A stretch of 20,303 bases of DNA. It comes from a virus. Numbering within the stretch: position 1 is the first letter of the stretch; every line of letters starts with the position of its first letter. Under the pieces are notes generated by a model. It was not told the origin of the DNA. It made no database searches and saw only the letters and a program-made list of their open reading frames with translations. The stretch lies in IMG/VR virus record IMGVR_UViG_3300042945_000555, positions 1-20,303 of that record; one strand, 5' to 3'. Of this stretch, positions 205-20,245 are shown in pieces. A program made the position numbers and the translations under genes.

Positions 205-2481
205 TTAAGCTGTTTGTGCAGCCATCGGGGGTCGGCCAGCGGGCCTTGCCGTTTTCTCAAGAATAGAACTGCGGGTTTTAAGATCATTAAGAGCCATCTG
301 CTGACGGATCGTTTCCATCTTCTGTTGATGAGTTTCTTGGTTCATCATGCGTTTTTCCTGCATTTCCGCCAGCTTGAGTTGCGCCTTTTGCATTTCCATT
401 TCCATCTTGGGATCAATCTGTCCCTGCGGCTGTTGCCCAGCTTGCATAGCCTGTTCTTGTGCTTTGGTCTGTTGGGCCATCATGCGATTGATCACCTGTT
501 GCTCAAGCTCATCGATATAAGCTGTGAGGTTCTGGAGTTGGCGCTTGAGTTCGCGAACTTCTTGCGCCCTATAGCTATTGTTAGAGAAGAAGACAAGGTG
601 TTCGGTCACATGGTCTGCGGCTGGACGCAAGATCTGCATTGCTTGCTCATCAGCCATTTGCTGTTGGCGATGGGCCTCAATGATCTCGGCAATCATCGGG
701 ATATGGGCCTCAATATGCACAGCATGGTTTTGGCTATCGTGAACCATCTGCGGAATGCCCTGACGGAGGTTGCCGTTCTCAAGGTTGGCGATATCAAAAT
801 CCACCACACGGCGCGGGCCTTTGTCGGAGACGAAAAGGTTGACCTTCTGCCAGCCCACACCAGAGATACCAGCAATGACGGAACGCAGGGTATTTTCTTT
901 GCCCTTCTCGTCCATCAAGGAATAAAGCTCCATGAGTTGCTTGCTCGCCATTTCGGTCATCACGGGGCTTCCATCACCCATGGCGCGGAATGCTGTAACC
1001 TTGAGGAACTGGCGCATACGCTCAATAGAGACCCCTCGACGCGCACAACGGCGGCGGAATTCAAGGGCGAGTTGCCCGCCCTTATCATTAGCAGTAAGCA
1101 GAGGATTGACAGCCCTGCGGTATTGTTCGGTCAAAAGCTTGTTGTAAGGAGTGTAAAAAAGTTCCAGTGCTGCGGCGTTGAGCGTTGACTCTTGGCGGGC
1201 TTGCTGGACAACTTCCGTAGCAGAGCGGGCTTGGCCGTCTGGAGTAGCCTGACGCGAACGATAGCTACCCGTATTATTCTGCAACACTTGACTCATCAGA
1301 TTATAGACAGGAAGACCCTGCGTAGCAATCGAAGGCGGTTGAAGTTGTATCGGGGTTAACCCACTAGGGATGAACGTATAAGGCCCGACCTCAATGTATT
1401 GAAAGTCTTGGATGGCCTCGGCGTCACCCTGTAACTGGATAAGTCCAGACGTAATCGCGGCTTGTGCCGATTGACAGAGAACGCGATTGGAAATCTGGAT
1501 CTGGTTGTAGATCTTCTGCTTGAGTCCGCGAATTGTGTGGAACGTCCCCTGTCCGACTCCGTAGGTGAAGATGACGAAGCACTGGTTGACATTTCCATAG
1601 CGGCTGTAGCGTTCGTAGAGGAAATCCGAAGAATCGCGGGAACCGATAAGTTGGGTAAACTTGCCATCAAATTCGCGGTTGTAGCCATAGATTAGCTGGG
1701 CGCGGTGGTAAGCTGATTCTCCAGCATAAAGGTCATTCTCCTTGATTTCGCGCTCAAAGTCTTCCCAGTGGGCGGTGTAATTTTTCCACTGATCGCGCTT
1801 GGTCGAAGCTTTCCAGATAGCCTGTTTAACGGCATTGAGATTCCAGCCCAGTTCTTTCGCGGCTTTGGGATTGCGGATATAGCGGTAAAGCTCGCTCACA
1901 CTCATGGAGCGTTGGACGATAGCAACTTCAATAGACTCATCTGATACTTTTGTATCACGGGCCACCTTGAAGTCTTTGAGTCCGCATGGTTCCCAGAAGA
2001 TTGACCTTTCATCGGGCCACATGGCCACCCCGACCCCGTCACCCACAAACTCGCGGGAAAGAAGCTGCATGTTGTAGGCATGGTCGCTCCATTCTTTAAG
2101 CATCCAATCAAATTCCTCAGAGATGATCTCGGAATCCTCATTGGAGTCCCCCTGATAGGATTCCATAATGACATTGGCAATGCGAGGCACCCCGTTCTGG
2201 AGTTCGATATACGGGGCCAAGGCGGCTTCCATGATGGCATTGGCTTCCCCGAAGTTGGCATTGACCACATGGGTTAATCCCTTGCTTTTCAGTTCTTCGG
2301 CATCGTAGGGGGCCTCGCCGTTGACCAAGGCTTGCGCCCGCGCCCGAAGATACGCCGCATCCTCATCTTGTTCGATATACTTGTTGGCGATTGCCACAAG
2401 GCTATCCGAAGATTTAATGCGTTTTTTCGGGGGACTACCACTCTCTGGTAGATTTTCCAGTTCTGCGTTACCTGTTGCCAT
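205..2481 (-). CDS. Phage portal protein (podovirus/P22-like size)
   Basis: Encodes a 758-aa protein that would form the dodecameric ring at the capsid vertex through which DNA is packaged and ejected. Support comes from the overall character: a long mixed alpha/beta N-terminal and central part, a central region rich in Gln and aromatic residues (around 300-450), and a C-terminal helical and coiled-coil tail from about residue 640, extremely rich in Gln, Met, Lys and Glu and ending in a Pro/Ala-rich tip, as is common in portals of about 700-750 aa. The ATG at 2481 has no Shine-Dalgarno sequence; a TTGACT-N17-TAGACT pair lies just upstream. Unusually, the gene is separated from the large terminase by about 10 kb of fibre genes. 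The family call rests on recall of portal-like sequence, not on a catalytic motif, because portals have none. Confidence 0.8.
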   Translation of the reverse strand: MATGNAELENLPESGSPPKKRIKSSDSLVAIANKYIEQDEDAAYLRARAQALVNGEAPYDAEELKSKGLTHVVNANFGEANAIMEAALAPYIELQNGVPRIANVIMESYQGDSNEDSEIISEEFDWMLKEWSDHAYNMQLLSREFVGDGVGVAMWPDERSIFWEPCGLKDFKVARDTKVSDESIEVAIVQRSMSVSELYRYIRNPKAAKELGWNLNAVKQAIWKASTKRDQWKNYTAHWEDFEREIKENDLYAGESAYHRAQLIYGYNREFDGKFTQLIGSRDSSDFLYERYSRYGNVNQCFVIFTYGVGQGTFHTIRGLKQKIYNQIQISNRVLCQSAQAAITSGLIQLQGDAEAIQDFQYIEVGPYTFIPSGLTPIQLQPPSIATQGLPVYNLMSQVLQNNTGSYRSRQATPDGQARSATEVVQQARQESTLNAAALELFYTPYNKLLTEQYRRAVNPLLTANDKGGQLALEFRRRCARRGVSIERMRQFLKVTAFRAMGDGSPVMTEMASKQLMELYSLMDEKGKENTLRSVIAGISGVGWQKVNLFVSDKGPRRVVDFDIANLENGNLRQGIPQMVHDSQNHAVHIEAHIPMIAEIIEAHRQQQMADEQAMQILRPAADHVTEHLVFFSNNSYRAQEVRELKRQLQNLTAYIDELEQQVINRMMAQQTKAQEQAMQAGQQPQGQIDPKMEMEMQKAQLKLAEMQEKRMMNQETHQQKMETIRQQMALNDLKTRSSILEKTARPAGRPPMAAQTA

Positions 2482-2524: not shown

Positions 2525-3355
2525 TTAGTCAATTACATCTATGAATGTGCCATATACCGAAAAATAGGCACTATTTGCGTTTGTATTAGTTGTAAACAAC
2601 CCTACATCAAAAGCAGAAAGGTTTTGACCAGCGTTATTGGTTGGGCCTCCCAAAATAGTAGCATTGGTATTGTTGGTTGGTGCTGCGGAATTTAGACCAA
2701 CGTAAAGTTTAACCTCTCCATTGGTTTTATTTTGTTCTACACCAATCCAAAATCTTTGATCTTCTGTTCCAATATTAACCCATGATCCGTTTGTATTGGT
2801 TGTTCCATTGTGGGCAATTAGCCTAACCTGATTGGTTGATCCCCCAGATTTGGACAATTCAAAACCAACCGCCCTGTTTATTGGATATTCCGCAATATTT
2901 GTTGCAGACGGCCAATTATTTCCCAAAACGGCCCGCACTGTTCCGTGGCTTGGAACAGCCTCAAATCTTACCCAAATAAAATGACTATCACTTCCAAATA
3001 GGGTTCCCGATCCAGCGGCACCTCTAGAATTTACATCGCGAGCCAAACGAATGGCAGTTTTCCCAGATGCATTTGTTCCAGAAACTTCTGTTGCTATAAT
3101 TGAATTTGAAACCTCCAATGTTCCGTTTATATTTTCAGTCAAAAGATTGGCAAAAGTTGGAATTGTTCTGTTGAAAATGCGATCATTAAAATAAGAGGTT
3201 GACGCAACAACACTGTTGATTGAGTTAGAGTTGGCCGTCCAAAAATTAGTTGGACGCTGAACTGTATTATTGGTGTCTACCATGACAGCGCGGAAGTTGG
3301 TTTGGCCATAGGCCAAACCTGAAATTAGAAAAAAAATTACGATAAATAGTTTCAT
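2525..3355 (-). CDS. Signal-peptide-bearing fibre-like protein (second copy of PTNFW module)
   Basis: Encodes 276 aa. The ATG at 3355 is chosen because it gives a clear Sec signal peptide: Lys at position 2, hydrophobic FIVIFFLISGLAYG, and likely cleavage near residue 17 (AYG-Q). It also lies 4 bases after the stop of the tailspike gene. Residues 22-41 contain a module ending in PTNFW at 35-39, the same residue numbers as in the fibre gene at 10194-12215. The rest is Asn/Thr/Ser-rich and looks beta-rich, with jelly-roll-like patterns (FIWVRFEAV, RFWIGVEQN, GEVKLYVG) that resemble LamG or lectin-type domains. The gene is AT-rich like its upstream neighbour. It is probably a host-binding or exported adhesin-like product, but function is inferred from context. 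A signal peptide on a virion tail protein is unexpected. Confidence 0.7.
   Translation of the reverse strand: MKLFIVIFFLISGLAYGQTNFRAVMVDTNNTVQRPTNFWTANSNSINSVVASTSYFNDRIFNRTIPTFANLLTENINGTLEVSNSIIATEVSGTNASGKTAIRLARDVNSRGAAGSGTLFGSDSHFIWVRFEAVPSHGTVRAVLGNNWPSATNIAEYPINRAVGFELSKSGGSTNQVRLIAHNGTTNTNGSWVNIGTEDQRFWIGVEQNKTNGEVKLYVGLNSAAPTNNTNATILGGPTNNAGQNLSAFDVGLFTTNTNANSAYFSVYGTFIDVID
3299..3319. repeat. Perfect 9-bp inverted repeat in signal-peptide codons
   Basis: The arms GGTTTGGCC (3299-3307) and GGCCAAACC (3311-3319) are perfect inverted copies with a 3-base loop. The element covers codons 13-19 of the fibre-like gene on the minus strand, across the predicted signal-peptide cleavage region. 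It could fold into an mRNA hairpin near the 5' end, but it has no U-tract and is not a terminator. It may simply follow from the coding sequence GLAYGQT. Confidence 0.5.
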
Positions 3356-3359
3356 AGTA

Positions 3360-5984
3360 TTACGGTTCCCAGAATGAAATAGCTTTCCAGTCAGCAGAAG
3401 ATGATGTTCCCGCTCCGATATAGGCAATACCTGTAGATGTATTGATGTATTGTTGGCCAATAAATTCGGGAGCAGATGTGGGTGCGGATGTTGCTAATTC
3501 AGGATCTCCAGACCCAACAATATTTCCAGAAGTTCCCCCAGAACGAGAAACCGACTTTATTCCTTGTTTAAATTTTAATTCAATTCCATTAGAAGGGGCG
3601 GCAACTGGCCCATCAACCCTTAACAAGGAAAGTGTTGTGATATCGTATATTTCTGTATTTGCTTTTACAAAAATTGGAGATGCATATCCACTTCCACCAC
3701 TATTAACCGCTACCGAAGTAACTTGATTGCCAGAAACGGATGCCGTAAACAATGCTCCAGATCCGCGAATTGGAGAAACAAACGAGGACGGCGCAACAAC
3801 AGCCGTTGGGGGCGAGGTATAATTTGATCCTCCGCTTGTAACAACAACACTTCCAGAGTCAATAATTCCATTAGTTGCCGTGCAATATCCAGCAGCACCA
3901 GACCCACCACCGCCGCTAAACGAAAGAGCGAATCTAGTTGTAATGTTATCCACATAAAGAAACACATTAGATCCATTCCAATAAACCTTAGAAATAATTG
4001 GAGATATCGTTGATGTGTGAATATGTTGCGATATTGAAAGACGCAAATCAGTTGCTGCATTATATCCGCTGGATGCAACGCTAAATTTTGTATGCTGTAA
4101 TTTATAATTTGAAGTGTCGTTTGCTATATTACTTCCATACTGAGACTGACCCCCAACCCCTATTGTGTAAGTAAATGCACTATTTCTACTTGCAACCATT
4201 CCAATTTTATACCATCCAATCTGAGTCGGATAAAATGGAAGTTCAACATCTTCTAAAAATACATGCTCAAGTCCATCAGCCACTGGAGAAGCATACGTTC
4301 TTTCTACATTAATTAATGTAAGTCCTTTTGATGTTTTTTTAGTATCTGCTCCACCAACCCGCATAAAGGCAAAATCCCATCCTTCAATACGATTGTTAAT
4401 AAATTGAGCTTCAGTATCGTTAAGAATTGCTGCATATTTTTTTGATGCGTTTTGTTTTGCTTTTAAAACGCATCTATTATTGGATACAACAATATTTGTA
4501 GCATTGCTAGAACCACCAAGATTTATTGCGTTGTGACCATTAAAATTAACATTTGATCCCGTTCCAATATTTCCGTCCCAAGTGTGGTTTGTATTGTCTG
4601 GAAGATTGTGTGCAACAATATAATTTCCATCAATAAGAATATTATCGCCTCCCGATATGCTGATTCCAGTAAGATCCCTATTTTCTAGAGGTAATGATTC
4701 TGGAAAAACTATTTCATTGTTTTGTATTCTTCCGTTTCCAAGTAAAACACCAATTCCGCCCTCGCAATATTTAATAAGATTATTTGAAATAATTCCATCC
4801 CAATTAGTCGTTAATATTGCAACAATTCCATTTCTTGTGTATCCTCCAAGCGGAGATGTTCCATCAATAATGTTATTGGAAATCAAAGAATAAGACTTAT
4901 TCTTTATTGGTGGCGAGTTAAATCCAAAATCATTAATTGCTTCATATGTAAAATATGAAATTGAATTATTTGTAATAATTCTTTTCTTCTGTCCACCAAT
5001 TGCAATTGGGCCGTCTCCACACCTAAACACTGTAAAGTCACCGCTTGCTATATTTGCAATTGGGGAAAAATCTGTTGGCCCGCATATTCCAATGTTTCCA
5101 TCAATATATGCGGTTTGTATCGCTTCTCCGCCACTGGCACAAAAAATACCAGCAATCATAGGCTCGCCACCATTGGATGATCCAGCAGAAGCCGCTCCCC
5201 ATGTTTGTCTGCAATAGTTTCTAACAAAATAAACATTCTCAGAATCGTAAATTTTTAAACCAGTAAAAAAATCCCAAAATTCACAATCATAAAATGCAGA
5301 ATATTGTCCACGCTTTCCTCCGTTGTTTATCAAGTGAAAAGCATAAGTGTTTGCAAAAGGCACCCTTGTTTGTGATTGTGAAGATGCTTTTAATGGTCTT
5401 TCGCCAGTTCCGCCAAATCTACTTTTGAAAATAATATTTTCGCAGTAAACGTTTATTTTCCCCTCAACCCAAAAAAAGTTAATGTAGCTGTTATTAGGCG
5501 CGGGATTTTCATCGTTCCCCCAAAGACCTGATGTCAAAACAGCTTTTTCGCCAAGCAAAATTAATTGGCGTTCGGTATTGGTTGTGTTTAACACGTTTAT
5601 AATGTCTTTTTGAACCAGACCAGTAGAACCAAAATTTCTGCTATATGATCCTGTTCCATCTGTGAATGTGGCAAGTTCATAAGTCCCAGATGGAAAAAAT
5701 ACGGCTTTATTATTAGCCACCGCATAAGCCACAGCGGAACGAATGGCTGGCGCGTCATTCGCAATTCCATTGCCAACAGCCCCAAAATCTTTGACGTTTA
5801 CGGAATCGGCAAATCTAGCGGATAACGTCCTTGCAGTATTCGACCCCGAAGCCAAAACACTACCACTTCCTGCTGTAGATGACGGCAATGCCCCGACAAT
5901 ACGGCTATCATCTCCTTCCGCATAGGTGCCTGCGGTGATGCCAGCTACTACTGGTAATGGGTAATATGCAGAGAGGGAGGCCAT
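3360..5984 (-). CDS. Tailspike with pectate-lyase-like beta-helix, possible depolymerase
   Basis: Encodes 874 aa. A short N-terminal head (1-60) carries the tail-module phrase GDDSRIVGALPSS. Residues 62-103 (VNVKDFGAVGNGIANDAPA, then KAVFFPSGTYEL) are the signature start of the Pectate_lyase_3 right-handed beta-helix of phage tailspikes. Many NN/NNxI turns between about 290 and 540 (SNNIIDG, SNNLIKY, QNNEIVF) fit successive helix coils. Two copies of a GGSxYxSP pattern occur at 718-725 and 763-770, and the C-terminus (838-874, APEFIGQQYINTSTG) resembles fibre tips. By family such spikes bind and often cleave host polysaccharide outside the cell; I cannot identify catalytic residues. The central part is far more AT-rich than the neighbouring genes, suggesting an exchanged domain. 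The ATG at 5984 has no Shine-Dalgarno sequence but has TATACT 9 bases upstream. Confidence 0.85.
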   Translation of the reverse strand: MASLSAYYPLPVVAGITAGTYAEGDDSRIVGALPSSTAGSGSVLASGSNTARTLSARFADSVNVKDFGAVGNGIANDAPAIRSAVAYAVANNKAVFFPSGTYELATFTDGTGSYSRNFGSTGLVQKDIINVLNTTNTERQLILLGEKAVLTSGLWGNDENPAPNNSYINFFWVEGKINVYCENIIFKSRFGGTGERPLKASSQSQTRVPFANTYAFHLINNGGKRGQYSAFYDCEFWDFFTGLKIYDSENVYFVRNYCRQTWGAASAGSSNGGEPMIAGIFCASGGEAIQTAYIDGNIGICGPTDFSPIANIASGDFTVFRCGDGPIAIGGQKKRIITNNSISYFTYEAINDFGFNSPPIKNKSYSLISNNIIDGTSPLGGYTRNGIVAILTTNWDGIISNNLIKYCEGGIGVLLGNGRIQNNEIVFPESLPLENRDLTGISISGGDNILIDGNYIVAHNLPDNTNHTWDGNIGTGSNVNFNGHNAINLGGSSNATNIVVSNNRCVLKAKQNASKKYAAILNDTEAQFINNRIEGWDFAFMRVGGADTKKTSKGLTLINVERTYASPVADGLEHVFLEDVELPFYPTQIGWYKIGMVASRNSAFTYTIGVGGQSQYGSNIANDTSNYKLQHTKFSVASSGYNAATDLRLSISQHIHTSTISPIISKVYWNGSNVFLYVDNITTRFALSFSGGGGSGAAGYCTATNGIIDSGSVVVTSGGSNYTSPPTAVVAPSSFVSPIRGSGALFTASVSGNQVTSVAVNSGGSGYASPIFVKANTEIYDITTLSLLRVDGPVAAPSNGIELKFKQGIKSVSRSGGTSGNIVGSGDPELATSAPTSAPEFIGQQYINTSTGIAYIGAGTSSSADWKAISFWEP

Positions 5985-6025: not shown

Positions 6026-6472
6026 TTATGTTTCGGGGTTCGGGCTGGCGAGGTCAGCCACCGCCTCGGCACTCGCCTCCGCAAAGCTCGCCTGCGGCTG
6101 GCCGAAAGCCTCCGCTGGTGCGGGTGTCGGGGATGCGGCCCATGAAAGCATCACGCCCTCCAGCCATGTCTTCGCGGCGGTCATCTTCGCGCCGAGGGGT
6201 TTGCCTGCTTGGAGCAGGGCCATTTCAAAACGCTGCAATGCGAGCGTCTGGTAGGGCGAGAAGTATTGGCTGACGGCTTGTTCGGCGGTGATTGTCGCCA
6301 CAGGCGGCACACTCCAAGCTCCATCCTGCCACACGGCATCCGCTGACGGCGCGGCGGGCTGCTCGGCCCAATCATCAGCCTTCGGATTGCCAGCGGCCAC
6401 CCAAGCAGCCATCTGCTCGCCAAGGTCACGGACATCGTTGGGGTCGGAAATGCGGTAGTAGAGATTAGGCAT
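6026..6472 (-). CDS. Small protein of the fibre operon, unknown function
   Basis: Encodes 148 aa, beginning MPNLYYRISDPNDVRDLGEQ. The ATG at 6472 is preferred because it overlaps the stop of the LamG-like gene by 8 bases; a longer TTG-started version from 6493 lies fully inside that gene's frame-shifted end and is less likely. The middle is helical (AEQAVSQYFSPYQTLALQRF) and contains a Trp-rich patch (DDW, AVWQDGAW). The last 30 residues are Ala/Pro/Glu-rich and low complexity. Its place between a lectin-like gene and a tailspike suggests a fibre component or a fibre assembly factor, but I do not recognise the family. The gene is G+C-rich, in contrast to the following tailspike gene. Confidence 0.7.
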   Translation of the reverse strand: MPNLYYRISDPNDVRDLGEQMAAWVAAGNPKADDWAEQPAAPSADAVWQDGAWSVPPVATITAEQAVSQYFSPYQTLALQRFEMALLQAGKPLGAKMTAAKTWLEGVMLSWAASPTPAPAEAFGQPQASFAEASAEAVADLASPNPET

Positions 6473-7148
6473 AAACTCGCGGATGATCGACAACAGTTGT
6501 CGAGTTGTTGGTAAGGGTGTTCCCCTTGAGATCGATTAAATCGCGAACCAACGGCGCATACAGCACAAGCCCCTGTGGCGATACTTTGTCGGGCGTCATA
6601 CCATCGGCCAAAGACGCCACTTCGTCGGCGGAAAGCGTGGTGTTGTAGATAGCGACTTCGGCCATGCGGGCATTGGCTGGAAATTGAAACCCAGAAAATG
6701 CGCGGCGTCCTATTTCTACGGCGGCGGTTTGTTGATTGATTGGGCCGACCGCAACTGTGGAAAATGCTTCTTGCGAGCCATTAACATACAGCCTCAATTC
6801 AGAGGTGCCATCCGTGACAAATTTGTAGGTAAGGCAAACGTGATACCATGTATCGGTAGCGCCGACTGTAGTGCTGTTAAGCGTAGTCGAAGTTGTGTTG
6901 TTCTTAAAAACCTCACAGTAAAATCTGTTGGCTGTTCCACTAAATGCTTGCCTCATCAGCGTATAGCATCGTGTGGTCGAACTTGCATCGCGGGTCACAT
7001 ACATATGGGCCGTTTGCCCCACAGCCGAAGATGTGGGATAAACCCAACACGCTACGCTCATGTTGTTTTGCGGATTCAGTGCAGCCGCATTGCCGCAAGC
7101 GATATATTGGCCCACGGTGTCGCTTGTTCTGGCGAATGCCCTTGCCAT
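6465..7148 (-). CDS. LamG/concanavalin-A-like lectin protein
   Basis: Encodes 227 aa with the hallmarks of a Laminin_G_3-type beta-sandwich: an early strand pair NMSVACWVYPTS (29-40), the phrase TWYHVCLTY (100-108) followed by ELRLYVNG (117-124), and the closing RMAEVAIYNTTLSADEVASL (161-180). These domains bind carbohydrate and are common at tips or sides of phage tails and on minor capsid decorations. The start overlaps the previous stop as TAATG (1 base), implying translational coupling to the long fibre gene. There is no signal peptide. The protein ends with LYAPLVRDLIDLKGNTLTNN, another familiar LamG tail phrase. The ligand is unknown. Confidence 0.85.
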   Translation of the reverse strand: MARAFARTSDTVGQYIACGNAAALNPQNNMSVACWVYPTSSAVGQTAHMYVTRDASSTTRCYTLMRQAFSGTANRFYCEVFKNNTTSTTLNSTTVGATDTWYHVCLTYKFVTDGTSELRLYVNGSQEAFSTVAVGPINQQTAAVEIGRRAFSGFQFPANARMAEVAIYNTTLSADEVASLADGMTPDKVSPQGLVLYAPLVRDLIDLKGNTLTNNSTTVVDHPRVYA

Positions 7149-9832
7149 TACGCCGCGCTCCTTACTTCAACAGCGACCAACTCCGCATCGCCCGTCATGG
7201 TGTCATTGGTCGCATCGTCCGCATTGCGGAAGACCTTCAGCCGAAATCTGTCACCCGCCGCCAGCGAGTCGATCGCCGTGGCGGTGATCTCGGTCACTGT
7301 CTCGATGCCACTTGTGCCGTTGGCCGCGCTGTGCGCTTCCGTGGCGGTGTCGAATGAGTCCGTGTCGAGGTCTGTGCCAGACTTCTCAAACTGAACGCCC
7401 CATCGGCAGTTGCCGCTTGTTGCGGTGCTTGCCATCCAGTGAAGGAAAACTTTGAGGCCGCTGCCAAGCGATGCACCTTCGGGGATGACGCCGACAAATA
7501 CTGCGCTTTCGTCTGTGGCGGCATCGAAGTCGAGGACGGCGATTCCTGTGCCGCGTGTGTCGAGGGTGGCGAAGGCGGTGCTGGGCGGCTGGTTGTGTTC
7601 GGCGGTGAAGACGGCGTAGGTCTTTGATCCTCCGCTGGCCGTGGCCGAAAGCGTATCGCCCGACACACTCAGCCCGCTGCCAATGATAAAGCCAATCGCC
7701 TTGGATTCCGAATCGTCCCACCCGTAGAGCTTGTCGGCAGCCAGATCGTCGGCCACAAGGTCGCTGCCGCTCACGCTCAGGATATCCGCGAGGGTCGTGC
7801 CGACTGCGGTGACGCCCGATCCCGTAGCCGAAAGCTCCCCCGCCGACAGGCTCAAGCCCGAGCCGATTTGGATCTCCTCGACGGCCCCTGTGCCGCTGCT
7901 CGTTCTTCCGATTAAGCGGGCGCTTGCTTGCGTTAGGCCCGATGATGTGATGGAGCCGCTGGCGGCTGCGCCTGTAACGTCTGCGACAAGGTGCGTGTGG
8001 TTGCCTGCGGCGACTTCGGTGGAGCCTGTGCCGACAGGGAGGCGGGCTACGTCGAGGGTGCCAGAGGTGATGCGGTCTGCGCCGTGAGCATCAACGGGGA
8101 CGATGGCCCAAAAACTACCGCCAGTTTGCCATCTAAAAGTAAACGAGCGACCTTCGTTATCTTTCGTTCCAAGGTCTGCAAGCGTTGATCCTCCTGCGCT
8201 TGTCTTTACAAGAATGCGACCGTTGGCAATGTTTCCAGAGCGAATCAACTGAAACAAATCTGCATCTTGGTTGCCCGTGGTTGGCAGGAGGACTTCGGTG
8301 TCGGTGCTTAGTGTTGTCGAAATCGTTATGCGGCGGGCGCGACCAGTTGCCAAAGTTGTAGGTGACGCCGAAATTGATTCTTCAAAGACCGACCATTGAA
8401 ATATGGCCCCAATATCGCTAGGAGCCAGCGCATCCGTGCCGCCTGTGGCGTGGGAGGCTTTGTGCGCCGTGGGCGTCCTCGCGTCACTTAGGCGAGCATC
8501 ATTACCCTGACAGGCAGTTCCAGAAGTGGTTCCGTAGCTGACCGTGAGCGTTCTATTGGCCGTAAGATCTCCCCCACCCGTAAGCCCTGTTCCCGCGCTG
8601 ATGGTTCGGGATGTCGGCACACCTCCGATATTAGTAAGTGCGGTTGCGGGGTTGCTGACATCACTGAGATTGTTTACCTCTAGAAGCGCCCCTTGCGCCG
8701 TCAAAAGCCCGCCAACATTGATTGTCCAAGCTGTGAATGGCCCACCGCTTCCTTCTACGGTATCGACATTAACCACCAATGTTGTTCCAGAATAGCTAGT
8801 AACAATAGCATGCATATGACGGCTTGCATCATAGACAATCGTAACGTCTTGTGTCGGGGTGTAGCTGAGACCCGACTGGACGGTGAACGTCTTAGATCCA
8901 GTGGTTAGTGAATGGGAGGTTGTGGAAGTTGTGAGATAGCGGTCTCCGCGATTTGCCAGCGTAAATGCCGTAGTAGCAATCTGTGTGGTATCAGTTCCAG
9001 CAGCAGCAGTAGGTGCTGTCGGGGTTCCTGTGAGTGCGGGGGAATCCAGATTAGCCTTTAGATTTAGTGCGGTCTGGGTAGCTGTTGAGACAGGTTTTGA
9101 GGCATCACTTGTGTCATCGACATTACCGAGTCCAACGTCTGATTTGGTCGCGGAAGCACCAACAGTTGCCCGTCCCTTGGCGTCTACCGTGACTTTGGTA
9201 TAGGTTCCAGCGCCAACCCCTGTGGTTGTTAAAGTCGGATTGGGATAAGTTCCAGTTAGGTCTCCGCCTGCGGGGCCGCTGGGTGCGGTGGAGATAGTTC
9301 CCCATTCGGGGGCCGTGGCCCCACTATTTACCTTTAAGACTTGCCCTGCTGTGCCGATTGGGAGGCGTTCGTTGACTAGCGCCCCGCGATAGAGGGTATC
9401 ACCTTGATTCGTTAGGATAGATTCTCCTCCACCTCCAGAAGTGCCATAGCGAGGAAGAATCTGCCATCCACGGGTCGATCCCGTATAGATCATCGTGAAA
9501 TATGCACCCTCTACGTTACAGATGAGGTTTTCTTCAAGACTTTCGATTCTTTGTCCGTTTCGGGCGATGGTCAGAGGATTGGTATCGAAGGTCTCCGAGT
9601 AGTCGAAGATATCAATGGAATCACCAGCATTCGGGCTTGCGGGCAGGGTCAGGGTAAAGCTACCACCAGATGTATCAGCAGCGATGTTCTGCGAGTTGGT
9701 AAGAGTCTGGTTGGCGGTGACTACCGTGTAGTTGATGTTGGCCTGCGGGCCACTAGGCCCAGCAGGGCCGCGCTCCACCACCTCAATAATCTCAATCTCC
9801 CTCTCTGTAATCTCAATAACCTCTTGGCTCAT
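7148..9832 (-). CDS. Long modular tail fibre protein
   Basis: Encodes 894 aa built from recognised fibre modules. After an acidic N-terminus a short collagen-like GPAGPSGP (22-29) appears. [16 protein letters not shown] (186-201) is a common fibre segment; [20 protein letters not shown] (231-250), then [20 protein letters not shown] (262-281) and TTQIATTAF (282-290), form a Stf-like repeat. Further segments are [20 protein letters not shown] (411-430), [20 protein letters not shown] (610-629), [16 protein letters not shown] (639-654) and twice IGSGLSxSxGxLSATxSG (656-673, 717-734). The last 155 residues look like a jelly-roll tip. A clear AGGAG (9845-9841) lies 8 bases before the ATG, which also overlaps the previous stop (ATGA). 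Role: adsorption fibre at the tail, probably receptor binding at the C-terminus. Confidence 0.88.
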
Positions 9833-10197
9833 CGGGCGATCTCCTGATAGACTTTAGCTTTACCTGTAGCAAATGCGATATAGGTGTAGCCGAGGTAGAG
9901 TTCGATTTCGTAGACGTTGTCGCCTGCGGTGAGGTTTGCGGCTTGTGTGGCGGTGATTTCGATTTCGATGGTGCCAGCGCTTCCGCCGAGGGTGATCCCG
10001 CTTCCAGAGGTCAATGTGAGCAATGTGGCGCTATCCTTTGCGCACTCCCGAATGACCATGTTGGCCCCGTAGCCCGAAAGATTGACAGGGACGTTTGATT
10101 TCCCCTTGCAGGACTTGGTCAGATAACGAAATTTCGCCGTCCATGTCTTTCCTTGGACGATTTCAATATCTTTCTCAAGTCTCCAGTAGTTGGTCAT
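9829..10197 (-). CDS. BppU-like adapter protein, copy 2
   Basis: Encodes 122 aa. The pattern '[11 protein letters not shown] ... [14 protein letters not shown] ... [20 protein letters not shown] ... [13 protein letters not shown] ... [11 protein letters not shown]' follows the N-terminal domain of BppU-type baseplate/adapter proteins, a beta-sandwich that tethers receptor-binding proteins to the tail. The protein at 12541-12903 has the same order of elements and is its paralogue. The start ATG overlaps the previous fibre's stop (ATGA), and the stop overlaps the next fibre's start the same way, so it is coupled to both. It has no fibre of its own and probably connects the long fibre encoded just downstream. 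Confidence 0.7.
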
Positions 10198-12215
10198 TTA
10201 TACAGTGGAACACGGAAGCTGACATTGCTTCCATTGGTTTGTACGGTAACCTCCATCCAAGCAACATAGTTGTTAAAATTTCCCGCATTTGTCGGGTTGG
10301 AATTCGTGGCAAACACTGCTGCTTGGAAATTGGCATTGTTGGTGTTGGTTAGGGCTGGGAGGCCAAGGCCGAGGTTGGTGCGTGTAACAGCTATATTTGT
10401 AATAGTTTCAGTAAAATAAATTGCACCTTCCAACGTGAGATTATCTCCAGAAAGATCTGACGCATTTACTTGATTAAACACAACATTGTTTGACGCCCCC
10501 AAACCAAGATTCGTCCTACTTGCTGCCGCATTTGCTGCTGCATTGGTGCCCGAAAAGAAGATAGGCTCAACATAAGAGATGTTGTCGGCCAATATCCATG
10601 CTCCACTTCGATACATCAATAGAACCGTTTCATCAAGCTGGTTGAGAGTGATTAGATTGGTTGCCGCGCCCAATTGCCTGATAGCTGTCACTGCATTGGT
10701 TGACTGGGCTAGATGAATAATAGTTGCTCTATCTCCTTCAAATGTGGTTGCGGGATTTGTGGGTAATGTCACCGTATTCGTGACCCCCGAAACCGAAGGA
10801 GAAAGGCTGAACAGGAATAGATTGCGGCTATTGGTTGCGGGATTTGTAGATGTTCCAGTAATATTGGTCTGGTATTGAACTGTTGTGGATATCGGAGCCA
10901 CTTGCCAGAAGTTGGTAGGGCTTACCACCTCTCCGTTTGTGTTGACTAAAACTGGATTGGTATTAGATCCGAAAAGTGCTGCTTGGAATGTTGCAGCGTT
11001 GGTGTTGGTGAGGCCCGCCCAAGGAACGCCAAGATTGGTTCTCGCCGTTCCAGCGCCAAACGCTGTATAGCTAAACCCATCCCAGCCAACAAAAGCTGGT
11101 GTTGCGGTGGAAATATTTGTAACCACTTTTGAAACTGTTCCGCCACTATTTATTTCCAAAAGCCCTCTACCAACAGTTGATACACCTTCAAAAAGGAGAG
11201 GCCCATTAAGATAGATTCCATTGCTTGCGTTGACAGCAAACGTGTTGTTGCCGCGAGAACTTCCAGCAGTCCCACCTTGCGGAACTCCGTTAAATAGAAA
11301 CGCGCCTTGGTGTCTCATATTGCCCAACAATCCCATAACAATTGACCCACCAGAGCCAATTGGCATATTGGTAATTGTATTAGCCCCCCCAAAAGCAAAG
11401 CTTACACTTGCCGTAGAATCTATAAAATTTTGTCCTCCAAATGCAGATGAATTATCTGTGGAAAGATTTGTATTAAAAGTTCCAACAGAAAGACCAGTAA
11501 AAGCATTGTTTGTAGTTCCAAGCCCGATAGCATTACGGAAATTTGTGGCATCTGTATTAGTAAGCGCAGACCAGCCCAATCCAAGGTTTGTTCTTGCGGT
11601 TTCGGCGTTGGTGGCTCCAGTTCCACCATTAGCAATAGCCACTGATCCAGAAATATTGGCCGCTGTTATGTCTGTTAACCCTGCGCCACTTCCGTTAGTG
11701 CGGAGAAGCAATGTTGGAAAATTTGTAAGATTAATTGCGTTTCCATCTGTTGCCAAAGCGCCAATTGCGGTTCTAGCGGCTGCTGCGTTTGTGGCAATAA
11801 ACACAGCATCGCCAACTATTGTAGAACCAAGATTCTGACGAGCGTTGGCTGCGTTTGTTGCTCCTGTACCACCACTGGAGATAGCAAGAGTTCCCCCAAT
11901 ATTTGTAAATGTAACTGTAGAGATATTAGATGCGGGGATAATTCCAACCAGATTGGTAGCCTGAAGATTGCTCAATGCCCCACCATTGCCAGTCGCCAAA
12001 TTAGAAAGCGCGGAAGAGGCGGGTTGAAATGCGGATACTGGACTTGTAGCCGCTGTTCCCAAACCAAGTCCCGTGCGAGCATTAGAAGCATCGGCGCTCC
12101 AGAAGTTGGTGGGTTGGACTACGGCATTATTGGTGCCGACAAGAACGTTCCGAGTTTGCCCGAAGCCCGAAACAACCAAGGCTCCACTGATAATAAGTGA
12201 GAGAATATATTTCAT
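10194..12215 (-). CDS. Signal-peptide-bearing tail-fibre-like repeat protein
   Basis: Encodes 673 aa. Residues 1-20 look like a Sec signal peptide (Lys2, then ILSLIISGALVVSGFGQ). PTNFW occurs at 35-39 and again at 433-437 in a repeated NTNGEVVSPTNFW-type module. A phage-fibre repeat of the type GGTGATNAxxARxNLGLG recurs: copies around 44-53, 115-130, 197-214, 389-396, 565-573 and 610-618, several followed by LTNTxxxxFxxA. Residues 256-300 contain SSAFGGQNF, VSFAFGGAN and SIVMGLLGN, resembling trimeric adhesin head turns. The start lies 1 base after the previous stop, and the stop overlaps the next gene (ATGA). The repeats place it with phage fibres, whereas the leader peptide is what an exported bacterial adhesin would carry. 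Whether it sits on virions or on the infected cell is unknown. Confidence 0.78.
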   Translation of the reverse strand: MKYILSLIISGALVVSGFGQTRNVLVGTNNAVVQPTNFWSADASNARTGLGLGTAATSPVSAFQPASSALSNLATGNGGALSNLQATNLVGIIPASNISTVTFTNIGGTLAISSGGTGATNAANARQNLGSTIVGDAVFIATNAAAARTAIGALATDGNAINLTNFPTLLLRTNGSGAGLTDITAANISGSVAIANGGTGATNAETARTNLGLGWSALTNTDATNFRNAIGLGTTNNAFTGLSVGTFNTNLSTDNSSAFGGQNFIDSTASVSFAFGGANTITNMPIGSGGSIVMGLLGNMRHQGAFLFNGVPQGGTAGSSRGNNTFAVNASNGIYLNGPLLFEGVSTVGRGLLEINSGGTVSKVVTNISTATPAFVGWDGFSYTAFGAGTARTNLGVPWAGLTNTNAATFQAALFGSNTNPVLVNTNGEVVSPTNFWQVAPISTTVQYQTNITGTSTNPATNSRNLFLFSLSPSVSGVTNTVTLPTNPATTFEGDRATIIHLAQSTNAVTAIRQLGAATNLITLNQLDETVLLMYRSGAWILADNISYVEPIFFSGTNAAANAAASRTNLGLGASNNVVFNQVNASDLSGDNLTLEGAIYFTETITNIAVTRTNLGLGLPALTNTNNANFQAAVFATNSNPTNAGNFNNYVAWMEVTVQTNGSNVSFRVPLYK

Positions 12216-12216
12216 T

Positions 12217-12540
12217 TTACATTAATCGCTTCCAAACCCTTTTAGTTCCTGTTTGGCTATCATAGTCATTCGGCCTGATAATAAAAGGATCGTTTTCTGC
12301 ATCTGTTCCATTGGTTAATTGATAAATTGATGGAATGCCGCTAATTACTAAAAATACCACAATCCCAACGGCATAAGTTCCGCTAACGGTATTCAAGGAA
12401 TCCAAATCTGTAGCCGCTCCACCAGTTAGTCCAGTGATTGATGGCTCTACCCGAAGGATGTTGACACTTGGAGTTTGGATTGGAGTAGAACTAACACCAA
12501 TAACACTGGAACTTGGGATGGGGATACAGATCTTGCTCAT
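12217..12540 (-). CDS. Small fibre-operon structural protein, unknown function
   Basis: Encodes 107 aa, mostly predicted beta structure, with a central GLTGGAATDLDSLNTVSGTY and a C-terminus YQLTNGTDAENDPFIIRPND that then reads W-K-R at the end. I recall similar short proteins in fibre clusters of unrelated phages, but cannot name a Pfam family. The hydrophobic run at about 56-72 is probably buried strands rather than a membrane segment. The start abuts the preceding stop directly (TAAATG) and the next gene begins 1 base after its stop, so it is part of the same tightly coupled translation chain. Likely an attachment or decoration partner of the fibre that follows. Confidence 0.65.
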   Translation of the reverse strand: MSKICIPIPSSSVIGVSSTPIQTPSVNILRVEPSITGLTGGAATDLDSLNTVSGTYAVGIVVFLVISGIPSIYQLTNGTDAENDPFIIRPNDYDSQTGTKRVWKRLM

Positions 12541-12903
12541 TTATCGGGTAACCTCTGGTGAAATGATAACATTGCCTTGCAGGATTCGGGTTGTGACGGC
12601 CCCATTGTAAAGCTCAAGGTCATATACGGCTTTATCACAGACCGAGAGCGATGCCGTGTCAGATGCCGAAATAGTAAGCCTAATAGATCCTGTAGCCTCA
12701 TTCAAGACGATTCTACCATTAGTTGTAGACAATTCAAGAATTAGTGCTTTGGATTCGGGCTTTGACCGAATGTGCATCTTGGCCGTAAATCCCGTAAGAT
12801 CCACGGGAGCCGATGGTTCGCCCGTCTCATAAAACAAAGTTTGATTAAATGTTGCCCCCTGAAATATGCAAATATCAGCTTCGGCAATCGGTAGTTGAGC
12901 CAT
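12541..12903 (-). CDS. BppU-like adapter protein, copy 1
   Basis: Encodes 120 aa from the ATG at 12903; a TTG three codons upstream is less likely. The sequence runs 'IFQGATFNQTLFYE ... VDLTGFTAKMHIRSK ... GRIVLNEATGSIRLTISASD ... CDKAVYDLELYNG ... QGNVIISPEVTR', which matches the BppU N-terminal-type beta-sandwich and parallels the 122-aa protein at 9829-10197. By family these connect receptor-binding proteins to the baseplate or tail. It is the first gene after the large terminase (16-base gap) and heads the fibre operon. No Shine-Dalgarno sequence is seen. A TTGACT and a TAGATT lie upstream but 15 bases apart, a poor promoter spacing. Confidence 0.72.
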   Translation of the reverse strand: MAQLPIAEADICIFQGATFNQTLFYETGEPSAPVDLTGFTAKMHIRSKPESKALILELSTTNGRIVLNEATGSIRLTISASDTASLSVCDKAVYDLELYNGAVTTRILQGNVIISPEVTR

Positions 12904-12919
12904 AAATGGCAAATAGAAT

Positions 12920-14761
12920 CTACCAATTCTTCCTTATAGTCAAGGCTTGTTTGAGTTTTTTAAACGTCTCTTTGTTGAGTCGTTTCTTTTCCTCAATCGC
13001 CTCACTACCCGCCATGGCTCCGAATACTTTACGAGCAACAAACAATCCTACAGCAAATGAGTCAAATAAGTCAGGAGACTTCCCAATCCTCTTTTTCATG
13101 TCGGTCTTGGACTCAATAATAATCTTCCGAGTCCTTCGTACATACTTTCTCTGAGTCATCTCCCATGCCAGATCGGGAGTTATTCCCTTAAGTTGTTCGC
13201 ATTCTAGGAAATAACGGGCCGCAAAGCAGAGTTCAGAAGCCATGTTGTGGAACAATTCCTTGCCGACTTGTGGCTTTCCAGTGGCTTCGTTCCTCATGGC
13301 GTATTGGGCGCTGACAGGTAAATCTGAAGCTGCTCCTGCAAAACTTACTGCATGCCACCCCTTTAAGAGTTCCCTTTCTCCAATTGACCAGAAAATACCG
13401 CCAGCCGAAGCATCCACACCCATCCATTGATTTGGAATTCCCAACTTAAGAGAAAGATCGTGGATTTGCTGGATCATCTCGTATTGGAAGTCTTCTTGAG
13501 ATCCCGCCCTTCTGTTGAGGACATACTGCTTCTCGACAGCTATCGCCCACTTACCACTGATTAGCTTGCCATACTTCATGTGGGTAAAGACGAAACGGTC
13601 ACCTCCCTCAGTGTAGCTTGGATCAATTCCTGCAATATCTTTCGGGGTTCCGTCCCATATTGGCTTGTCTAGCGCCCCATGACGAGCCAATAGGATATCC
13701 GAAACAATCGTGGAGTCATCGGCGTCGGCAGGAGGCCAGAATCCCCTAAACTTTCTCCAATACTGTGGGTTAAGTTCTCCAAGTTCTTTTCGGGCCAAGG
13801 CCACATCATTGGGTTTGGGAAGAAATGGATATCGGAGTCCCTTGCCAGCATCGAAGGACTGTTGGTTCGGATTGTCGTTCTCTGAATCAAACCTGATGCA
13901 CACCCCCTCAATACCAGCCACCCGTATCTTCCAGTTTGGCGTTTGCTCATCCACACTCATCCATCCCTTGATGGGTTCGCAGAACTTTCCATGGGGGTCA
14001 AAGATGGATGCGGGATTGCCCGCGCCCACGATGTAGAGTTCTTGAGCGCCCTTAAATCCCCATACAGCTTGGGTAATCACGGAAGCCGAACAATCTTGCA
14101 ACTCATCGATTATCAACACGATACGACGATTCTTTTTACCTTGAAGTCGCTTTTGAGCGTCATCTTTGTATTCGTCACCCGCCGCCAAGAGCATGATAGA
14201 GGAAGCATCACTCACCCCTGTTTCGGGGTCGATAATAGCCCCCTCTTCGTCTGAGAGCTTGATGATATCCATGGACTCGATTAGCCTTCCAGAGGCCAGT
14301 CCCATGTTTCGGGCTTCGCGATACATCTTGACCAGTGCCGCCCAGATACGCTGCTTGGCGTCAATTTTGCTCGTAGAGACCACAATGGTCATTGTGTTGA
14401 TCGGGTCGCAGAACCAGTTAACCAAAGCAAATGCCGCCATTCCGTAGGACTTGCCAGAGTCGGTGCCGCCCGCTAAACCCGTGACGCTTCGGACAAATCG
14501 GTTCCCCGTGACCTCGTCTACTTCGTGAACAGTATTGCAGAATGCTTGTGCGCTCAGTTCCGCCCACCTGTGCCACTGAAATGTGGGCCATATAGCTGAA
14601 ACGATATTTCGGTAATGACGGGCTTTTCCTAAACCACCCTCTTCGGGAGTCAGCCCTTGCAGGAAAGCGTCCATCTCAATGCGGATTGGCGTAATCGCCT
14701 GTCCGTCTTTGGGTAACCACAACCTCCCGTATTTCTCTATCCCTTGATCAACTGTTGCCAT
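12920..14761 (-). CDS. terL: Terminase large subunit (packaging ATPase and nuclease)
   Basis: Encodes 613 aa, a normal to slightly long TerL. The ATPase domain has Walker A GGTDSGKS (98-105), Walker B IVLIIDE (214-220) with the catalytic Glu at 220, and a coupling-motif-like GAGNPAS (246-252). The RNase-H-like nuclease domain shows GIDPSYTEGGD (378-388), MGVDAS (447-452) and KSPDLFDSFAVGL (561-573), which supply the expected acidic residues D380, D450 and D564/D567. It cuts concatemeric DNA and pumps it through the portal into the prohead. It is transcribed away from the probable small terminase, whose start is 28 bases from its own. The start has no Shine-Dalgarno sequence; TATAAA lies 7 bases upstream. 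Confidence 0.95.
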   Translation of the reverse strand: MATVDQGIEKYGRLWLPKDGQAITPIRIEMDAFLQGLTPEEGGLGKARHYRNIVSAIWPTFQWHRWAELSAQAFCNTVHEVDEVTGNRFVRSVTGLAGGTDSGKSYGMAAFALVNWFCDPINTMTIVVSTSKIDAKQRIWAALVKMYREARNMGLASGRLIESMDIIKLSDEEGAIIDPETGVSDASSIMLLAAGDEYKDDAQKRLQGKKNRRIVLIIDELQDCSASVITQAVWGFKGAQELYIVGAGNPASIFDPHGKFCEPIKGWMSVDEQTPNWKIRVAGIEGVCIRFDSENDNPNQQSFDAGKGLRYPFLPKPNDVALARKELGELNPQYWRKFRGFWPPADADDSTIVSDILLARHGALDKPIWDGTPKDIAGIDPSYTEGGDRFVFTHMKYGKLISGKWAIAVEKQYVLNRRAGSQEDFQYEMIQQIHDLSLKLGIPNQWMGVDASAGGIFWSIGERELLKGWHAVSFAGAASDLPVSAQYAMRNEATGKPQVGKELFHNMASELCFAARYFLECEQLKGITPDLAWEMTQRKYVRRTRKIIIESKTDMKKRIGKSPDLFDSFAVGLFVARKVFGAMAGSEAIEEKKRLNKETFKKLKQALTIRKNW

Positions 14762-19039: not shown

Positions 19040-19426
19040 ATGACAAGAAAAACTCCACTTCGTTCAAAAACTCCACTTAAACGCAGCGGAAGGCTGCGGA
19101 GTGCATCCCCCAAACGCCAGCGCGAGTACAATGAGTATACAAAGGTAAAAAAAGCCTACTTGGCACTGCATCCCATATGCGAGAAATGTAAGAAGGCGAA
19201 GAGTCAAGATATCCATCATAAGGCGGGCAGGGTTGGTCGCTATCTTTGTGACTACAGTCTTTTTGCCGCGCTTTGCCGATTGTGCCATGATTGGTGCCAC
19301 GCTAACGGGCGGGAAGCCCGCAAGCAAGGATGGATTATTGATACAGTTCATGTTCCTCAGTATCTGGCGGAAGAGCCTTCAGAAGCTCAATCTCATAGCC
19401 AAAGTCAGGCTCATACTGCCGAATAA
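19040..19426 (+). CDS. HNH endonuclease-type protein
   Basis: Encodes 128 aa from ATG 19040; a GTG 5 codons upstream (19025) is less likely. It starts with the KTPLRSKTPLKR-type basic lead typical of a phage HNH family. It contains two metal-binding knuckles: CEKC (47-50) and CRLCHDWCH (79-87), flanking the catalytic DIHH (57-60). HNH proteins are ββα-metal nucleases; in many phages they stimulate terminase cleavage or act as free endonucleases. The C-terminal 20 residues are Ser/Gln/His-rich. It is the only plus-strand gene on the right side and overlaps the lipoprotein gene on the other strand by 92 bases at its 3' end. Confidence 0.85.
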   Translation: MTRKTPLRSKTPLKRSGRLRSASPKRQREYNEYTKVKKAYLALHPICEKCKKAKSQDIHHKAGRVGRYLCDYSLFAALCRLCHDWCHANGREARKQGWIIDTVHVPQYLAEEPSEAQSHSQSQAHTAE

Positions 19427-19625
19427 GCGGGTTCCAAATCTTACCCTTCGGTGCCGTCCAATTGCGGAAGGCGTCAACAGCATTGACCCAACTAGTCTCC
19501 AAAGGAGCATTCCACTCATGTTCTGGGGGGAAGTTCCAAGGATAGGGTCGAGGTGGATAAGAAACACAGCCACTTGCAATAAGTAGTGCTAATCCTATCC
19601 CTGCTCTTTGAAGTCGTAGAACCAT
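19335..19625 (-). CDS. Small lipoprotein, possible spanin-like or host-surface protein
   Basis: Encodes 96 aa. The N-terminus MVLRLQRAGIGLALLIASGC is a lipoprotein signal peptide with a lipobox (ASG-Cys20), so the mature protein would be lipid-anchored in the periplasm or outer membrane. The rest is Pro/Trp/Glu-rich, for example YPPRPYPWNFPPEHEW. It has one of the strongest Shine-Dalgarno sequences in the window (AGGAGG at 19635-19630). Its start lies 31 bases inside the preceding gene. By analogy Pro-rich phage lipoproteins can be Rz1-type outer spanins, but no endolysin or inner spanin is seen here and the length is greater than Rz1. Superinfection exclusion is another option. Confidence 0.7.
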   Translation of the reverse strand: MVLRLQRAGIGLALLIASGCVSYPPRPYPWNFPPEHEWNAPLETSWVNAVDAFRNWTAPKGKIWNPLIRQYEPDFGYEIELLKALPPDTEEHELYQ

Positions 19626-20245
19626 AGCTCCTCCTCGCTTTCGCTAACCCACCTACTGCCTGTATGCTCGCAGCTAAACTCTTGGCTAAAGACCCTCCAG
19701 TCGGGTTTCATTGGGAATTGTTTGGCGATAAACGACCCACCGTCCATCCACAACACACGATTGTTGGGTTGTAAAAAATATTGACCACCTTCTCCCACCA
19801 GCACATGACCACACTTATGCCCTGCCGCCATCTCGCCGTAGCCAGAGGTATAGTGGGGGCCAAAACACCAGTCCAAGGTGAACATATACTTTGCTTTTTC
19901 AAAGGTTTTGTTCTTTAGCATGATGTTTGCTGCCCGATTCTTGCAGTAGTCCAAGATATTAACCGAACAATAGTAGCTCATGGAGTCCCATAGCTGTATC
20001 CAATCTAGCGGGTAAGACGATCCTCCCGTATCCTCTGCATGGAGATAATGGATTGGAACACGGGCATGCTGGCTTCCGTATTCGGTCATCACACTAAACA
20101 ACCCACACCGCTGGGGGATAGAAGTGAAGGCAAATACCTCGATTAGTTGTCTCTCCCTACTGACACAGGGTTCTAAATCGTAAAAGAATCCCTCGTCTAC
20201 GAAAGCAAAGAAGGTGGGGATATTGACGTTGAGATAGTTGCTCAT
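19595..20245 (-). CDS. 216-aa conserved-looking phage protein, unknown function
   Basis: Encodes 216 aa that start MSNYLNVNIPTFFAFVDEGF and are rich in aromatic residues and Cys (9 Cys). Phrases AEDTGGSSYPLDWIQLWDSM and LQPNNRVLWMDGGSF look well conserved, and the C-terminus runs through RWVSESEEELWFYDF. I cannot assign a fold or reaction. The ATG overlaps the preceding stop as ATGA and the following lipoprotein begins 31 bases before its end, so it sits in the middle of a coupled chain. A soluble protein is likely, because there is no signal peptide or membrane segment. Confidence 0.7.
   Translation of the reverse strand: MSNYLNVNIPTFFAFVDEGFFYDLEPCVSRERQLIEVFAFTSIPQRCGLFSVMTEYGSQHARVPIHYLHAEDTGGSSYPLDWIQLWDSMSYYCSVNILDYCKNRAANIMLKNKTFEKAKYMFTLDWCFGPHYTSGYGEMAAGHKCGHVLVGEGGQYFLQPNNRVLWMDGGSFIAKQFPMKPDWRVFSQEFSCEHTGSRWVSESEEELWFYDFKEQG

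Follow-up and report, generated by a model that had tools for sequence, protein, structure and literature searches.

Two predicted exported proteins, one with tail-fibre homology, in the fibre block of a phage of likely Verrucomicrobiota host

Two proteins encoded in the fibre block of an uncultured phage, one of 673 and one of 276 residues, probably leave the cell interior because both carry a working-looking export signal, and we consider it likely that both are exported and act outside the cytoplasm. The general assumption is that the fibres of tailed phages are synthesised and put together in the cytoplasm, where the virions themselves assemble. A fibre that is both conserved and hypervariable, has a signal peptide under selection and contains next to no cysteine would point either to a periplasmic stage of maturation or to a role for fibres apart from the virion, such as the blocking of receptors, and either reading, if true, changes the prediction of receptor-binding proteins from phage genomes. 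The sequence-level support shown here comprises the anatomy of the leaders and the selection acting on them, unrelated signal peptides at the same slot, a scarcity of cysteine and a translationally coupled start; from it we infer that export and cleavage of both proteins are real.

The stretch of DNA analysed (the window) spans 20,303 bases of an IMG/VR virus record, and its fibre block lies entirely on the minus strand. The phages with signal-peptide fibres described here are an uncultured group, probably of Verrucomicrobiota, which is also the likely host phylum of the window phage. The genes are listed in the order in which they follow one another, each with its parts:

12920-14761, minus: terminase, heading the block and followed by an LtfC-like gene
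12541..12912, minus: LtfC-like/BppU_N-like beta-sandwich protein, cysteine-containing, without signal peptide (phrog_1084 E 6e-25; phrog_3304, L-shaped tail fibre assembly, E 4e-9)
12217..12540, minus: 107-aa protein, its stop codon 1 base ahead of the 673-aa start codon
10194..12215, minus: 673-aa fibre protein, predicted to be exported (PHROG tail fiber, phrog_11393, E 7e-9)
12159..12215, minus: predicted signal peptide of the 673-aa fibre, residues 1-19, cut between GFG and Q20 (pattern in 72 relatives)
12099..12158, minus: mature N-terminal module QTRNVLVGTNNAVVQPTNFW of the 673-aa fibre, residues 20-39 (codon differences among relatives)
10905..10958, minus: internal module copy in the 673-aa fibre, ending VLVNTNGEVVSPTNFW, PTNFW at residues 433-437 (profile E 1.1e-6)
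10581..10898, minus: beta-sandwich domain behind the internal module (AF2 pLDDT 81; TSP4-like, Foldseek E 8e-4, TM 0.44-0.47)
9829..10197, minus: second LtfC-like protein (phrog_1084 E 7e-17)
7148..9832, minus: 894-aa tail fibre without signal peptide, a contrast protein (PHROG tail families E 4e-24)
6465-7148, minus: LamG gene, between the 894-aa fibre and the 155-aa gene
6026-6493, minus: 155-aa gene, between LamG and the tailspike
3360..5984, minus: 874-aa pectate-lyase-like tailspike without signal peptide, a contrast protein (Pfam PF12708 E 1e-8)
2525..3355, minus: 276-aa lectin-like protein, predicted to be exported; final gene of the fibre block, ahead of the portal gene
3305..3355, minus: predicted signal peptide of the 276-aa protein, residues 1-17, cut between AYG and Q18 (heuristic and pattern of relatives)
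3239..3304, minus: mature N-terminal module QTNFRAVMVDTNNTVQRPTNFW of the 276-aa protein, residues 18-39 (E 4.4e-8 to the 673-family profile)
2528..3070, minus: C-terminal beta-sandwich of the 276-aa protein, residues 96-276, probably ConA-like/LamG-like (Pfam and AF2/Foldseek)
205..2481, minus: portal-like protein downstream of the fibre block, so named from position and size (gene order and conservation; a 21% identical homologue in a Verrucomicrobiota prophage)

Among phage records, neither of the two leader-bearing proteins had a match, nor had the portal, and the terminase gave a single weak one. Among viral contigs the relatives are very close, the terminase being 92-99% identical across the best 80, and despite this closeness their fibre block is a mosaic. 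Across the viral loci L001-L192 the first-slot fibres (those in the position of the 673-aa gene) range from 311 to 1658 aa against a near-constant terminase, an extreme diversification, and a signal-peptide fibre occupies this slot in every relative in which the region is complete.

Signal peptides were called with a hand-made heuristic, not a standard predictor, which was positive for 73 of 75 first-slot fibres and for none of the controls (0/53 terminases, 0/56 neighbouring fibres, 0/16 tailspikes and 0/19 portals); it also flagged two of the 54 copies of the 107-aa protein, probably in error. The leaders show the anatomy expected for Sec and signal peptidase I, namely a positive n-region, a hydrophobic core and small residues at -3 and -1. 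In 72 distinct relatives of the 673-aa fibre, which do not amount to 72 independent tests because they are so close, K2 and Q20 are invariant (72/72 each), position -3 is G, A or S in all 72 and position -1 in 71, whereas the hydrophobic core drifts among I, L, V, F and A. Likewise, replacements make up 55% of the changed codons in the leader as against 9% in residues 20-39 (96 proteins). In nearly all relatives the start codon of the 673-aa type touches or overlaps the TAA that ends the gene before it, which makes translation of the leader very likely. Anatomy and codon changes together indicate that the leaders behave as Sec signal peptides, as had been supposed, although the lengths of about 18-20 residues given in the preliminary description should read 17 and 19 when counted up to the probable points of cleavage.

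That description had also drawn attention to a short motif, PTNFW, at residues 35-39 of both proteins and again at residues 433-437 of the larger one, and translation confirms all three positions. The pattern CCNACNAAYTTYTGG matches the window at these three places only and its reversed control nowhere, while composition alone would yield 0.0001-0.0007 occurrences of PTNFW. A profile built from residues 20-48 (the mature N-terminus) of the 673-aa family picks out both other copies among the window's open reading frames (276-aa module E 4.4e-8, internal copy E 1.1e-6), the next best frame having an E of about 2. The modules described as identical are in fact homologous; their equal residue numbers are genuine and arise because the leader that is shorter by two residues is offset by two extra residues behind it. 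A chance origin of PTNFW was rejected on these grounds. The wider notion that motif and leaders alike are accidental features of T/N-rich proteins draws on the T/N content of both proteins (26-27% in their classes), and is highly improbable given the expectation below 0.001, the gap between a profile E of 4e-8 and one of about 2, and the conservation of the module in about 100 contigs. Codon differences in QTRNVLVGTNNAVVQPTNFW (678 synonymous versus 63 replacement, 96 proteins) place the mature module of the 673-aa family under strong purifying selection; in the internal copies PTNFW is unchanged in 81 against 118 synonymous changes, an invariance that is partly built in, the copies having been collected by PTNFW.

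Was the original suggestion right that the module serves docking or sorting and is combined, as one shared unit, with a variety of C-terminal domains? PTNFW does follow signal peptides in many relatives, and to this extent a motif that is real, conserved, signal-peptide-borne and coupled to export signals has held up. The shared unit has not: proteins in the same slot often lack PTNFW, and the module also occurs inside fibres that have no leader, so that PTNFW as a universal docking unit was rejected. The evidence comes from the last slot, directly before the portal-like gene, which holds either a signal-peptide protein or no such protein, and in which there are at least four unrelated mature N-termini (types A-E), several of them without PTNFW. 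The PTNFW type is present in the window and in L002, with PTNFF/PTNFL variants in L012 and L046; the QTIKSLGYNTTNGQVV type in L068, L114, L169, L181, L186 and L188; the QTITTNTNDLTVPWS type in L025, L043 and L060; the QLVPQTQLEQDLSN type in L054 and L072; and a second PTNFW type in L038. All of these proteins have a signal peptide, and most end in ...NTVSISNGIITGWTQ, in place of which the 276-aa protein of the window ends in a probable ConA-like domain (weak support). Since last-slot relatives keep the signal peptide while their mature N-termini are unrelated, the constant feature of the slot appears to be export rather than the PTNFW module.

The C-terminus of the 276-aa protein is weakly lectin-like. 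Residues 176-233 (2657-2830) match DUF2341 with a Pfam E of 8e-5, exactly at the cut-off, and Foldseek relates an AF2 model, built on three sequences and of low confidence (mean pLDDT 45), to GH131, pentraxin, legume lectin and agrin LamG folds with E about 2e-4; likeness to the ConA-like lectin/LamG/GH131 fold is thus weak, at under 20% identity. There is no PHROG match to known tail fibres and no sequence match in the PDB, and the earlier designation of this protein as a fibre has nothing to support it. Viral contigs yielded no additional full-length relatives; the most distant relative (35% identity), L003:33-818, has tandem PTNFF and PTNFW modules at an N-terminus that runs off the contig end.

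By comparison, the 673-aa protein combines annotated homology to tail fibres (phrog_11393, E 7e-9) with a position in the fibre block. The domain behind its internal module bears a weak fold likeness, at a low TM-score (0.44-0.47), to the N-terminal domain of the TSP4 tailspike of phage CBA120 (PDB 7rfv), for which we know of no signal peptide. One fibre, L054:5129-6661, starts with the usual non-signal N-terminus (MEVIEVIDTPIEV...), and a hydrophobic leader and module (LATLILSALMLCGARAQVRDLVYGTNNVVVGPTN) follow in the same frame near residue 180, as if a cytosolic and an exported fibre had fused naturally.

The content of cysteine provides an independent sign, supportive though not strictly defining, of a probable life outside the cytoplasm. 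Mature first-slot fibres contain 0.05 cysteines per 1000 residues and last-slot proteins 0.27, as against 2-19 in other proteins of the fibre block. In non-redundant 100-residue segments the first-slot fibres have 1 cysteine in 76 segments and the neighbouring fibre of the 894 type 39 in 113, and the contrast persists in T/N-rich segments alone (1 in 59 versus 10 in 28; rough Fisher p 3e-5, each cysteine being treated as one segment).

How might such proteins act? We envisage that both are made together with the tail fibres, that the host Sec pathway exports them and signal peptidase I trims the leader, and that the mature proteins, acting extracytoplasmically, would begin at the glutamine just ahead of the PTNFW module. 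Their most likely destination, put forward tentatively, is the periplasm, where the fibres would fold; virions freed from the cytoplasm at lysis would then bind them by way of the mature N-terminus that is conserved in the 673-aa type, with the lectin-like 276-aa protein as a sugar-binding accessory. This joining to virions is favoured because conservation is highest in the mature N-terminus of an otherwise variable protein, because the 673-aa gene is present in all relatives with a complete region, and because it lies among LtfC-like fibre proteins and carries a tailspike-type (TSP4-like) domain. Against this, the occurrence of the module inside fibres means that its conservation may be structural and unrelated to docking, and we know of no tailed phage that adds Sec-exported fibres after lysis.

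The next most likely destination, possible if rather doubtful, is that the exported fibres never join the virion and instead bind the receptor of the host or sugars on its surface, whether at that surface or within the periplasm, masking receptors and so stopping superinfection or the sticking of progeny to debris, a function like that of Llp (T5) or Cor built from a fibre. Here there is tailed-phage precedent, which post-lysis joining lacks, in that the free receptor-binding protein pb5, when added to cells, blocks infection by T5, and the exported superinfection-exclusion proteins of coliphages adjoin receptor-binding genes, Llp being encoded beside pb5 (PMC9586334). The lectin-like domain of the 276-aa protein would suit such a role, and the window encodes a second exported-looking protein, a lipoprotein, at 19335-19625. 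However, the position of the genes in the fibre/structural block makes late expression likely, glutamine directly behind the cleavage site takes the place of a lipobox, and the conserved N-terminus would need another explanation. Nor are the exported fibres copies of virion tips, since hardly any of their sequence recurs in virion-type fibres. A role as decoys that mimic these tips was rejected: 97 signal-peptide proteins and 255 others have no segments in common, with the sole exception of two matches to one L054 protein.

Unlikely, in our assessment, is a leader that is not a Sec signal at all, and acts as an uncleaved hydrophobic N-terminus anchoring the fibre in the tail. The cytoplasmic assembly of tailed-phage virions and the location of both proteins within the fibre block would suit an anchor, whereas the small residues at -3 and -1, the invariant glutamine at +1, the relaxed leader core beside a constrained module, the unrelated signal peptides at one slot and the depletion of cysteine all speak for cleavage and export. 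The leaders of eCIS-type cargo, to our knowledge, are not of the hydrophobic Sec type. It is also quite unlikely that the proteins are adhesins of lysogenic conversion, given by a prophage to the host surface and unrelated to virion function. Runs of signal-peptide genes do end tail modules in Verrucomicrobiota prophage-like regions (L232, L224), yet the long relatives, although possibly incomplete, are mostly free of integrases (Resolvase family missing in 8/8, tyrosine integrase in 7/8), which weakens the proposal; a 72.8-kb relative has no evident integrase or repressor, and no relative with a complete region lacks the first-slot gene.

Searching genome contigs gave a single match, in the Verrucomicrobiaceae genome PowLak16_MAG3 (L193), whose 209-aa signal-peptide PTNFW protein carries MKLLTLILIASASLAMAQTRTVTVDGSGSVVSPTNFW and lies behind a fibre-like gene, as here, although it is shorter, has a different C-terminus and sits on a 5.5-kb contig that is probably part of a prophage. 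Searches of 387 Verrucomicrobiota genomes gave further tail regions with signal-peptide proteins at L230, L231, L232, L243 and L244, so that a similar arrangement occurs in the prophage-like regions L193, L230-L232, L243/L252 and L244/L253. Signal-peptide fibres are thus widespread in this phage group and found in several Verrucomicrobiota prophages, which bears out the earlier idea of exported fibres; they are not universal in the phylum, since the fibres of G191, a Verrucomicrobiota prophage of the same portal family (21% identity), have none. It is from this distribution that Verrucomicrobiota is taken as the likely host phylum of the window phage. Runs of two to five signal-peptide genes unrelated to PTNFW lie within the tail module, or at its distal end, in the Verrucomicrobiota prophage-like regions L232, L224, L223, L252 and L253.

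The fibre tip of L243 is homologous to annotated tail fibres, and two named phages with this tip start the protein with a signal peptide: BcepC6B gp19 (YP_024939.1; Burkholderia phage) and PBR31 orf035 (QIN95346.1; Xanthomonas phage). No signal peptide was found in Mulvp2_69 and PPWS1 49, which have the same tip. As in the window, gp19 and orf035 join a signal-peptide leader to a C-terminus of tail-fibre type, and they are encoded directly behind a tail fibre/tailspike gene and before the lysis genes; they differ in lacking the PTNFW module, in having 4 and 2 cysteines, and in coming from podophages that infect Proteobacteria and have integrase genes. In the paper on PBR31, the section on the genome contains no discussion of orf035 or of its leader (PMC10975493). 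The shared layout makes the question testable now in two cultured phages, whose tail fibre/structural proteins with unremarked signal peptides, beside lysis genes, are gp19 in NC_005887.1 and orf035 in MT119766.1. The open-access papers searched contain no description of tail fibres with signal peptides as a class. A speculative proposal is that such fibres are exported by Sec, fold and are perhaps modified in the periplasm and are captured by virions only at lysis, which would place the last step of assembly beyond the cytoplasm, in many Verrucomicrobiota phages and sporadically in those of Proteobacteria.

Llp (T5) and Cor (T1, phi80) resemble the present proteins as exported phage products encoded beside receptor-binding proteins (PMC9586334), and differ in being small, lipid-anchored and not fibres; a lipobox cysteine at +1 was not found here, glutamine occupying this position in 72/72 relatives and in the 276-aa protein. 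Elsewhere in the window, a 96-aa lipoprotein-like reading frame (19335-19625, minus), whose leader ends ...IASGC and which is conserved in the 72.8-kb relative (L241), could encode a spanin or a superinfection-exclusion lipoprotein, and a 216-aa frame (19595-20245, minus) matches phrog_3704 (moron, annotated ferredoxin) with E 6e-38.
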